DNA from: Acidimicrobiales bacterium
GTDB lineage: Bacteria > Actinomycetota > Acidimicrobiia > Acidimicrobiales > GCA-2861595
Reading direction: 5' to 3'
DNA length: 54,181 nt
Assembly: GCA_035540975.1 (NCBI GenBank)
Contig: DATLFN010000029.1
Span: 1 to 54,181 of the forward strand
In this document: one piece after another, positions 5,488 through 51,411 of the stretch
Layout: every line of letters begins with the position of its first letter
Position numbering within the stretch: position 1 is the first letter of the stretch
Translations under genes and position numbers: made by a program
Notes under the pieces: generated by a model
Database searches by the model: none
What the model was told of the DNA's origin: nothing
The model's input: the letters and a program-made list of their open reading frames with translations, nothing else

Positions 5488-5706
5488 TCACGCCGCCCGG
5501 CGGGCGCCGGTGCGCCACTCCCAGGCGTCCACCACCGCCGAGGCGCGGACGAACACGTCCGTGCCGGCGGCGAAGAGCCACACCGTGCCCGGGGACGGCC
5601 GGGCGGAGACGAGCGTGGCGTCGTCGATGCGTGACCCGTCGGCCAGGGAGACGCCCACCTGGCGCCCCTCGAGGGTGCGGAGATCGGAGATCCGGCGAGG
5701 CGTCAT
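5488..5706 (-). CDS. Tiny barrel-like protein A, coupled to fdhD (paralogue of 50055-50249)
   Basis: 72 aa. Its ATG overlaps the fdhD stop as ATGA (5703-5706), so translation is probably coupled, and AGGGAGGA lies about 5 bases upstream. The sequence is short alternating hydrophobic strands (VGVSLADGS, TVWLFAAG, DVFVRASAVVD) with a terminal WEWR, suggesting a small SH3- or LSM-like barrel. It aligns over almost its full length with the 64 aa protein at 50055-50249: shared DLRxLxGRxVxVxL, DxSxI, VWL, FV, VVDxWExR. Function unknown. The pattern looks like a ligand- or RNA-binding adaptor, but nothing in the sequence proves it. Confidence 0.75.
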   Translation of the reverse strand: MTPRRISDLRTLEGRQVGVSLADGSRIDDATLVSARPSPGTVWLFAAGTDVFVRASAVVDAWEWRTGARRAA

Positions 5707-6578
5707 GGCTGTCCTCCCTCGTTCCATAGCAACGTAGGTCCGTCGCCGGAGGGATGCGCGGATGGCCCGTCCTGATACGGCGCATCCGAGAACGGCGCCG
5801 GCGCGTAGACGTTCATCGACGACGGGCGCAGGAACCCGACGAGGGTGAGGTTGGCGCGCCGGGCGGTCTCGACGGCCAGCGACGACGGGCCGCTGACGGC
5901 CGCCACCAGGCCGAACCCGGCCGCCCATGCCTTCTGCACCATCTCGAAGGACGCCCGGCCGCTGACGAACAGCGCCGCCCCGCCCGCCGGGAACCGGCCG
6001 TCCAGCAGGAGACGGCCCACGACCTTGTCCACGGCGTTGTGCCGGCCGACGTCCTCGCGCACGACGCCCACGTCGCCGGTCGCGGGGTCGAAGGACGCGG
6101 CGGCGTGCACCGAGCCGGTGGCCTCGAACAGCGACTGGGAGGCGCGCACGGCGGCGGGCACGGCGGCCAGCACGACCGGGTCGGCGGCAAGGGGGGCGGG
6201 CAGCGGGGCGAGGCGCGCCGCCAGCGACTCGATCGACGCGTGGCCGCACAGGCCGCAGGCGGCGCCGACGGTGCCGAGCCTCGCCGGCGCGGCGGGGGCG
6301 ACGCCGCCCGTGTCGACGTCCACCACGTTGAAGCCCGTCCCCGCCGCCGGTCCCGTGGCGCAGTACCGGACCCGGCGGACGGGCGCCCCCGCCAGCAGCC
6401 CCTCGGCGGACAGGAAGCCGACGGCCAGCTCGAAGTCGTGGCCCGGCGTGCGCATGGTCGTGGCGACGAGGCGGCCGTCGAGGCGGACCTCCAGCGGCTC
6501 CTCCACGATGACCGAGTCCGGCCGCACGCCCCTGCCGGGCGTCGAGACGAGCACCTCCCGGCGACGGCCCCGTGCCAC
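5703..6578 (-). CDS. fdhD: Formate dehydrogenase accessory sulfurtransferase FdhD
   Basis: 291 aa. FdhD moves sulfur to the molybdenum or tungsten cofactor before insertion into formate dehydrogenase. Diagnostic features: an early EEPLEVR, PGHDFELAVGFL, the CGLCG Cys pair, and DVGRHNAVDK, then SGRASFEM. The GTG at 6578 is chosen because TACGGT (6586-6591, minus strand) lies exactly 7 bases before it, the leaderless pattern seen all over this window; a GTG three codons upstream is possible. The 3' end overlaps small protein A by 4 bases. No formate dehydrogenase gene is in the window; mobA at 10635 belongs to the same cofactor pathway. Confidence 0.95.
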   Translation of the reverse strand: MARGRRREVLVSTPGRGVRPDSVIVEEPLEVRLDGRLVATTMRTPGHDFELAVGFLSAEGLLAGAPVRRVRYCATGPAAGTGFNVVDVDTGGVAPAAPARLGTVGAACGLCGHASIESLAARLAPLPAPLAADPVVLAAVPAAVRASQSLFEATGSVHAAASFDPATGDVGVVREDVGRHNAVDKVVGRLLLDGRFPAGGAALFVSGRASFEMVQKAWAAGFGLVAAVSGPSSLAVETARRANLTLVGFLRPSSMNVYAPAPFSDAPYQDGPSAHPSGDGPTLLWNEGGQP

Positions 6579-6585
6579 GCCGCCC

Positions 6586-6591
6586 ACCGTA
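6586..6591 (-). promoter_or_regulatory. -10 element of fdhD
   Basis: TACGGT on the minus strand, seven bases before GTG 6578. It predicts a leaderless or nearly leaderless transcript. No good -35 seen. Confidence 0.6.
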
Positions 6592-48829: not shown

Positions 48830-49966
48830 ATGACCGAGATCGACCACGACGAGCCGCGCCCGGCGCCCGAGCGGCGTCCCCGCCCGGCCGTCCCGGCTGG
48901 CCTCGAGCGCGCCGCCGCCTGGAGCTGGCGACTGCTGGTCGTGGGTGCCGCCGCGGTGGCTGTCCTGGCCCTGCTCGGGCGCCTGCGCCTGGTCCTCTTC
49001 CCGCTCGTCCTGACGCTGCTCGTCACCCGCGTGCTGTGGTCGCCCGCCCGGTGGCTGCGACGCCGGCGGTGGCCCGCCGGGCTGGCGGCGGCCGTCACGG
49101 TGCTCGGGTTCCTGGCGCTGGTGACGGCGGCGTTCTCCGTGGTCGGGGCCGTGGTGGCCGACGAGGCCGGGGACCTCGGCCCCACCCTGGGCGACGCCGT
49201 GGACGACGTGGAGCGGTGGCTGGTCGAGGACAGCCCCTTCGACGTGAGCCGGGAGGACGTGGCCCGGTTCCGCGCCGACCTGGGGGACACCGTCCGGGCG
49301 GCGGCCGGGTCCTCGGGCGGCGCCGTGGTCTCGGGGGCGATCGCCGTGGTGGAGGCCGTCCTCGGGGTGGTGCTGGCCCTGATCATCACCTTCTTCGCGC
49401 TCAAGGACGGCGACCGCTTCGTGGCGTGGGGGCGCAGGATGGTCCCCGCCGACCGGCGCGACGTGGCCGGGGTGATGGCCGCCCGGGCCTGGGAGACGGT
49501 CGGCGGCTACCTGCGGGGGGCCGCCCTGCTCGGCTTCGTCGAGGGTGTGGCGATCGGGATCACGCTCGCCCTGGTCGGGGCCAGGCTGGCGGCGCCGGTG
49601 GCCGTGCTCACGTTCATCACCGCCTTCGTGCCCTTCGTGGGTGCCATCGTCTCCGGAGTGGTGGCGGTGCTGGTGGCGTTGGCGACGGGCGGCGTCGAGG
49701 CCGCGGTGGTGGTCGCCGTGGTCGCCGTCGTCATCCAGCAGTTCGACAACGACCTGCTCGCCCCCCTGGTGTACGGGCGGGCCCTCAACCTCCACCCCGT
49801 CGTCGTGCTGCTCGCCATCACCGCCGCGGGCGCCCTGTTCGGCCTGGCCGGGAGCATCCTCGCCGTGCCCGTGACCGCCGTGGTGGTGAACGTCGTCGGT
49901 GCCGCCCGGGGCCACGAGGAGGGCGGCGGACCGGGGGACGGGGAACGGTCGCCGGCCCCGGCGTGA
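48830..49966 (+). CDS. AI-2E-family membrane transporter
   Basis: 378 aa. Two helices near the N-terminus, a soluble hairpin, and a C-terminal membrane bundle with the family's GYLRGAALLGFVEGVAIG, FVPFVGAIVSGV and QQFDNDLLAPLVYGRALNLHP. The family includes the AI-2 exporter TqsA and Na+/H+ antiporters; substrate not determinable. Good ribosome site GGGGAAGGGG before the ATG. Follows the FAD oxidase by 67 bases, possibly in one transcript. Confidence 0.93.
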   Translation: MTEIDHDEPRPAPERRPRPAVPAGLERAAAWSWRLLVVGAAAVAVLALLGRLRLVLFPLVLTLLVTRVLWSPARWLRRRRWPAGLAAAVTVLGFLALVTAAFSVVGAVVADEAGDLGPTLGDAVDDVERWLVEDSPFDVSREDVARFRADLGDTVRAAAGSSGGAVVSGAIAVVEAVLGVVLALIITFFALKDGDRFVAWGRRMVPADRRDVAGVMAARAWETVGGYLRGAALLGFVEGVAIGITLALVGARLAAPVAVLTFITAFVPFVGAIVSGVVAVLVALATGGVEAAVVVAVVAVVIQQFDNDLLAPLVYGRALNLHPVVVLLAITAAGALFGLAGSILAVPVTAVVVNVVGAARGHEEGGGPGDGERSPAPA

Positions 49967-50054
49967 CCTGTCCGATTCGTCGGGAGGTTGAGCAACCCGG
50001 GGTTGCGGGGGCACACTTGACCCGGACGGGCACAGGTGGGTGCAAGGGGGCCAG

Positions 50055-50249
50055 ATGCGACACAGGCTGGTGGGCGACCTTCGAGCGCTCCAGGGGCGGC
50101 GCGTGAGCGTGGCGCTGACGGACCAGTCGTGCATCCACGACGGGTTCCTCCTCGGTGTCACCGCCGAGCGGGTGTGGCTGGACAGCTCGGGCGAGGAGAC
50201 GTTCGTGAGCCTCGCCGACGTGGTGGACTTCTGGGAGACGCGCGGGTAG
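50055..50249 (+). CDS. Tiny barrel-like protein B (paralogue of 5488-5706)
   Basis: 64 aa. ATG 50055 after AAGGGGG. Pattern: [19 protein letters not shown], then [25 protein letters not shown], short strands with a terminal WExR motif. It aligns with the fdhD-coupled protein at 5488-5706 over ~58 residues with about 26 identities. It sits 97 bases upstream of a sigma factor gene on the same strand. Family not recognised; the strand pattern suggests an SH3/LSM-like barrel. Confidence 0.72.
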
Positions 50250-50346: not shown

Positions 50347-51411
50347 ATGACCACACCCGTCGTCGATCGCGATGTGGACCGGCGCATGGCCGACCTCGTT
50401 CGCCGCGGTGCCAGACGGGGGACCGTCGCCCTGTCGCGGGTCGAGAGGCTCATCGACGCGCTGGCGCTCGACGACGAGGGCGTCGACGCGCTCTACCGGC
50501 GCCTGGACGGAATGGGCGTCGTGGTGAGCGACGACTGCGGCCGGCGACGCGGTCGCGCCGCCCGTGCCGACGACGAGGTGGTGCACTTCACCACCGACAG
50601 CCTGCGCCAGTTCCTCGACGAGATCGGGCGCCACCCCCTGCTGACCGCCGAGGAGGAGATCGAGGTGGCGCGGTGGGTCGAGGCGGGCGACGCCGGAGCC
50701 AGGCAGCGCATGATCCTGGCGAACCTGCGCCTGGTGGTGTCGATCGCCAAGCGCTACCAGGGCCACGACATCGCCCTGCTCGACCTGGTCCAGGAGGGCA
50801 TCTTCGGCCTGGTGCGGGCCGTCGAGAAGTTCGACTGGCGGCGCGGCTTCAAGTTCTCCACCTATGCGACGTGGTGGATCCGCCAGGCGCTCCAGCGGGC
50901 CGTCCAGAACCAGGCGCGCACCATCCGCATCCCCGCCGGCGTCGCCGACCGCGAGCGCGCCATCGGCGCCGCCCGCCGCGAGCTGACGGAGGTGCTCGGC
51001 CGCTCGCCCAGCGACGAGGAGCTGGCCGACGCCACCGGTCTGACGGTGCACCAGGTGTTCGCCGTGCGCGACGCGGCACGCGTCGTGGTGAGCCTCGACC
51101 AGCCGGTCGGCCAGGAGGGCGAGGAGACGACGATGGGCGAGTACGTGCCCGCCGACGCCCCGGGCCCCGACGAGGAGATCTCGGTCAGCCTGCGCAACCA
51201 GGTGTTGCAGGCGGCGCTGGCGGCGCTGCCCGAGCAGCACGGCGCCGTCCTGCGGCTGCGCTACGGCATCGACCGGGGCGTCCCCCTCAGCGTCCGGGCC
51301 GTGGCCCGCGAGCTCGCCCTCCCCGGGCCGCTCGTGCGCCAGATGGAGGCCGAGGCGCTCGCCCAGCTGGCCGCCCGGCGGGAGATCGACGCCCTGCGCG
51401 ACGCGGCCTGA
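50347..51411 (+). CDS. Group 2 (SigB/HrdB-like) sigma-70 factor
   Basis: 354 aa. A variable N-terminus (~75 residues) is followed by regions 1.2 ([21 protein letters not shown]), 2 ([26 protein letters not shown] and [13 protein letters not shown]), 3 ([15 protein letters not shown]) and 4 ([15 protein letters not shown], a helix-turn-helix near the end). Region 4 lacks part of the usual GLxDG...TLEEVG pattern, pointing to a non-essential, stress-type sigma factor. ATG 50347 lies next to an AT-rich GTATACAT (50337-50344). Confidence 0.92.

Follow-up and report, generated by a model that had tools for sequence, protein, structure and literature searches.

A small-protein family with a predicted Sm-like fold, present in two copies in an Acidimicrobiales genome

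Rof (YaeO) is a small Sm-like protein that resembles Hfq and inhibits Rho by protein binding, and it has been reported to be restricted to Pseudomonadota (PMC11018626); it provides a documented precedent for Sm-like proteins acting through a protein partner. In mycobacteria, no Hfq homologue has been identified (PMC4109619). The FlgV protein of Borrelia illustrates that the Hfq label on a small protein can mislead, AlphaFold having disagreed with that label (PMC11607428). Here we describe two small proteins, copies A and B, encoded 44 kb apart in a window of 54,181 nt (the whole stretch of DNA that was analysed), for which AlphaFold, in contrast to the FlgV case, supports an Hfq-like fold.

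The features of the two loci are collected in Table 1. The preliminary description gave the right coordinates for copy A but omitted its strand: the gene lies on the minus strand, where it is translated as MTPRRISDLRTLEGRQVGVSLADGSRIDDATLVSARPSPGTVWLFAAGTDVFVRASAVVDAWEWRTGARRAA, and the plus-strand reading of this interval is interrupted by a stop. The TGA of fdhD and the ATG of copy A share 4 nt (ATGA, 5706-5703), and 88 nt separate the AI-2E-type transporter gene from copy B. A near-perfect palindrome, GCAACCCGGGGTTGC, occupies positions 49992-50006, about 50-60 nt ahead of copy B. Across the family, the inverted repeats found upstream are at chance level (mean longest arm of 5.44 versus 5.26 in shuffled sequences, a value equalled in 15 of 60 shuffles), and the palindromes ahead of copy B and some relatives were dropped as a candidate signal because shuffles match their arm length.

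Table 1. Coordinates of copies A and B and of the genes adjoining them in the window
Feature	Coordinates	Strand	Evidence or remark
Copy A, 72 aa predicted Sm-like small barrel protein	5706-5488	minus	ATG at 5706, stop ends 5488; AlphaFold and Foldseek
Ribosome-binding-site region of copy A	5707-5722	minus	GAGGGAGGACAGCC ahead of the ATG
fdhD	5703-6587	minus	PF02634, E 2.2e-58; followed by copy A
AI-2E family transporter, preceding copy B	48830-49966	plus	PF01594, E 1.7e-55
Copy B, 64 aa predicted Sm-like small barrel protein	50055-50249	plus	AlphaFold pLDDT 93.9; Foldseek Hfq matches
Sigma-70 family factor, following copy B	50347-51411	plus	PF04542/PF04539/PF04545/PF00140

Comparison of the two copies shows 28 identical residues out of 65 (43%, pairwise E 1e-14), confirming the similarity noted in the preliminary description. 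When the whole source genome is scanned, copy A recovers copy B at E 3e-10 and exactly two convincing copies are present; up to E 10, the only candidate for a third is one marginal match at E 0.17. Further searches recovered relatives outside the window, bearing out the suggestion of a wider family, with about 30 relatives found in total in about 25 genomes, all of Acidimicrobiia type; those contigs that carry a name are from Acidimicrobiia or from unclassified Actinomycetota metagenome-assembled genomes. Since about 15-17 candidates were scored per genome, the counts of genomes carrying the family are lower bounds: at least 2 among 40 relatives in the first search, at least 21 of 397 in an order-level profile search (at least 19 once two chance matches are removed), at least 12 of 395 at class level, and at least 23 of 347 in an order search with a profile of divergent members. 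The two chance matches, L024 and L025, were discarded because they fall within long ORFs that have no relation to the family. In a phylum sample of 396 genomes, the source genome was the only one in which the family was detected. The distribution is thus patchy, amounting to at least roughly 5% of the sampled genomes in the order, and up to three copies occur per genome (G911 and G917). No relative was found in the plasmid search or, with the A1 query, on viral contigs, and among phages there were only weak, partial matches in Klebsiella phages, at thymidylate synthase (E 0.4).

Judged by their codons, the family genes are under purifying selection, with dN/dS values of about 0.11, 0.12, 0.24, 0.35, and 0.21 in the five closest pairs; both the homologues and the codon-level conservation on which the preliminary description had made its proposal depend were therefore found. 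A sequence resembling a ribosome-binding site precedes 21 of 25 family genes. The consensus core of the family reads LEGRxVxVALxDGSRIDDCxLVS..TLWLFxNGxDxFVPLxDVxDxWE, in which W43 and V58 are invariant across 29 members. The family tree is poorly resolved, with copy B on a long branch and copy A grouping weakly with one relative (L031). A longer possible relative with a 129-residue frame and the core TMWLTEVDGE..DVVL was seen in two f32 genomes (L110 and L111), at marginal E-values of 2e-4 and 6e-4.

Two structures were predicted with AlphaFold, one with copy A as the first sequence of an alignment of 26 (pLDDT 83.6) and one with copy B as the first of 29 (pLDDT 93.9); the queries differ but the alignments overlap, so the two models are not fully independent. 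In each, a helix at the N-terminus leads into five strands, the last of which is preceded by a short turn. Searching the PDB with Foldseek ranked the Hfq of Methanocaldococcus jannaschii first for both models (E 1.6e-3 for A and 6.8e-4 for B), with a superposition rmsd of 0.9 Å over 50-52 residues and a target-normalised TM-score of 0.82. Hfq and Sm chains account for about 45 (model A) and 44 (model B) of the top 50 fold matches. The others are designed small barrels, CgeA, a cytochrome, an integrase entry, and the uncharacterised 2rb6, and SH3-like barrels designed de novo are matched too. Foldseek E-values of 6.8e-4 to 1e-2 are modest, in keeping with the short length of 65 residues. The family is thus predicted with good confidence to have the topology of the Sm-like superfamily, an N-terminal helix and a strongly bent five-stranded barrel, in line with the barrel-like character and the comparison with LSM and Hfq put forward in the preliminary description.

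Scans against Pfam, NCBIfam, and PHROGs returned nothing significant for the core members, so that the family is indeed unnamed in these libraries, and an Rfam scan of the window was likewise empty. At the periphery, the divergent relative L022 touches DUF6897 (PF21838) at E 3e-4, its 20.7 bits lying below the curated cut-off of 23.9, and one member of set A3 touches the MM0924 family (NF041655) at E 1.5e-4. The core members, including copies A and B, are unmatched by these two profiles, neither of which has a match in the source genome, and a literature search for DUF6897 or MM0924 found no paper. Designed 'Pizza6' propellers were the top sequence matches in the PDB and were rejected as spurious, arising through a short repeated W/F stretch. 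On the predicted models, copies A and B belong to a new lineage-restricted family within the known Sm-like fold superfamily, confined to Acidimicrobiia as far as sampled.

Within that superfamily, the M. jannaschii Hfq-like protein MJ1435 (2qtx, 4x9c, 5dy9) is alike in predicted fold and size and has a DG/NG turn after strand 1; its match at the sequence level is weak (E 1.1-1.2 over strands 1-2). The Hfq profile PF17209 matches neither the window copies nor any member of set A2. The [YF]KH motif, corresponding to the YKHA of the Hfq Sm2 region with its uridine contacts, occurs in 0 of 29 members, and the family carries FVPLxDV at this position. As regards the basic rim patch that Hfq has on helix 1 (RRER), arginines at positions 10, 15, and 16 are common in the family, and by-eye alignment places them out of register with R16, R17, and R19 of the E. 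coli protein. The E. coli Hfq core has a pI of 9.8 and the family a mean of 5.7, the majority of its members being acidic; acidity is not universal, since copy A is basic, with a pI of 11. None of the conserved genes that classically adjoin hfq, such as miaA, was identified beside the family copies. LSM and archaeal Sm proteins (PF01423) are alike in predicted superfamily fold and differ in that the LSm Sm2 motif [IVL]RG is found in 0 of 29 members; the best LSM match (E 0.22) came from one divergent member, and all scanned members fall below the Pfam cut-off. Profile-profile alignments with hhalign against Hfq, LSm, and Rof were not significant, although the positive controls Rof-Hfq and Hfq-LSm also reached only 2% and 22%, so that these scores carry no weight for or against descent from Hfq. 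By its motifs and profile matches the family is not Hfq, though it is Hfq-like in predicted fold.

The closeness of that fold invites the reading that these proteins are Hfq stand-ins, that is, ring-forming RNA chaperones that would bind sRNA and mRNA via a non-canonical surface, in a lineage lacking Hfq. PF17209 has zero matches in the source genome and in 20 related genomes, with the control positive in 5 of 14 reference genomes; mycobacteria, too, are without an identified Hfq homologue (PMC4109619). However, the YKH motif is missing, the arginines appear by eye to be out of register with the basic rim of Hfq, the proteins are mostly acidic, and the family is patchy and has diverged into as many as three paralogues. 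An essential, general replacement for Hfq it cannot be, because neither Hfq nor this family is present in most of those related genomes in which both profiles were searched. We therefore consider this reading tentative and on balance unlikely.

A role as a small structural or assembly barrel, outside nucleic-acid handling and transcription, would be compatible with the many functions served by small barrels, and the spore-crust protein CgeA (9l9d) is itself a Foldseek match, at rank 47. Against this, the family showed no association with genes of the envelope or the spore, and inspection of the N-terminal sequence revealed no export signal, which makes such a role quite improbable. The comparison with Rof (PF07073) yields several points of resemblance: Rof is likewise small, Sm-like, devoid of the Hfq RNA motifs, and acidic (pI 4.5-6.0), it has a DG turn after strand 1 in common with the family, and a rho gene is present in the source genome. 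A Rof-like function, in which the Sm-fold proteins would bind Rho and block its RNA sites, is nevertheless very improbable. PF07073 does not match the family, the helix-1 residues through which Rof contacts Rho (Y-D-x-x-E) occur in 0 of 29 members, the score of the family profile against Rof is equalled by about 6% of shuffles, and Rof has been reported from Pseudomonadota alone (PMC11018626).

The gene neighbourhoods bear on whether each copy serves the gene beside it. Among the loci examined, at which some of the neighbours were annotated, no neighbouring gene recurs across lineages, while synteny is present within them. An ACT-domain gene lies downstream of the family gene in genus g133, and a sugar-nucleotidyltransferase gene beside it in the bacterial family f13. 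Four divergent members from the bacterial family f32 (L072, L073, L075, and L087) share a conserved locus with genes for an ammonium transporter, GlnD, RsfS, a NadD-like protein, and an FAA hydrolase, the small gene standing tail-to-tail with the FAA-hydrolase gene in two of them (L073 and L087); a Na/H exchanger and a pyridoxamine oxidase are encoded beside other members. Coupling to fdhD, asserted in the preliminary description, thus holds for the source genome, by virtue of the ATGA overlap, and among the family loci examined it is found only there. The position of copy B ahead of a sigma-70 gene is likewise correct for the window, while the linkage is not kept in other genomes. Because no neighbour is conserved across lineages, these linkages say little about function. 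Copy A as an accessory of FdhD or formate dehydrogenase maturation, and copy B as a co-regulator of the sigma factor, would account for both arrangements in the window, but no other member lies beside either gene among the partly annotated neighbours, and we regard this as a most improbable explanation. The reading of both copies as chance ORFs, of which high-GC sequence yields many long ones, is ruled out by conservation, given homologues in so many genomes, closest-pair dN/dS below 0.4, the frequent ribosome sites, and the confident predicted fold.

Two further observations concern the sequence ahead of the family genes. In genus g133 (L062, L063, and L066), a short, conserved hairpin-like block lies within about 85 nt upstream of the start and is possibly a leader or operator; GGGCC-GAAT-GGCCC is replaced by GGGTC-GAAC-GACCC in L066, a compensatory change. 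In f13 (L076 and L070, with L059), a promoter-like block, ATCC[AC]CCACCT ... CTCTACAAC, lies about 25-100 nt upstream of the family gene.

The explanation that we favour, with a probability of roughly 55%, is that copies A and B are paralogues of a fast-evolving, single-domain Sm-like family and work as trans-acting adaptors or regulators that reach their target through the barrel surface. Action in trans, not tied to fdhD or to the sigma factor, is suggested because the neighbours differ between lineages. The barrel surface would contact the target, and the acidic pair D28-D29 in strand 2, together with D50 and the aromatic residues W43, F52, and W62, may form either the framework of the fold or an interface. 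The target is more likely to be a protein component of the machinery for gene expression than a uridine-rich RNA bound in the manner of Hfq, since the RNA-contact motifs of Hfq and LSm are missing and the family has an acidic bias. RNA binding by the family is possible in the light of the predicted fold. Of the two roles named in the preliminary description, small adaptors or nucleic-acid binders, the Sm-like fold fits either, whereas the absent motifs and the acidity of most members weigh against nucleic-acid binding of the Hfq or LSm type.

With Hfq unidentified in mycobacteria (PMC4109619) and undetected in the source genome and its 20 relatives, RNA chaperoning in the phylum is an issue, and a family with a predicted Hfq fold in Hfq-less Acidimicrobiia provides a concrete candidate for an sRNA/mRNA chaperone. 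It is conceivable, if rather doubtful, that some Acidimicrobiia, apparently lacking Hfq, carry their own fast-evolving and often duplicated Sm-like riboregulators, which would engage RNA, or else proteins that handle RNA, by means of a surface unrelated to the YKH site of Hfq. Should the proteins instead bind protein targets, they would constitute another case of the Rof type, in which the Sm fold has been turned into a protein-binding regulator.
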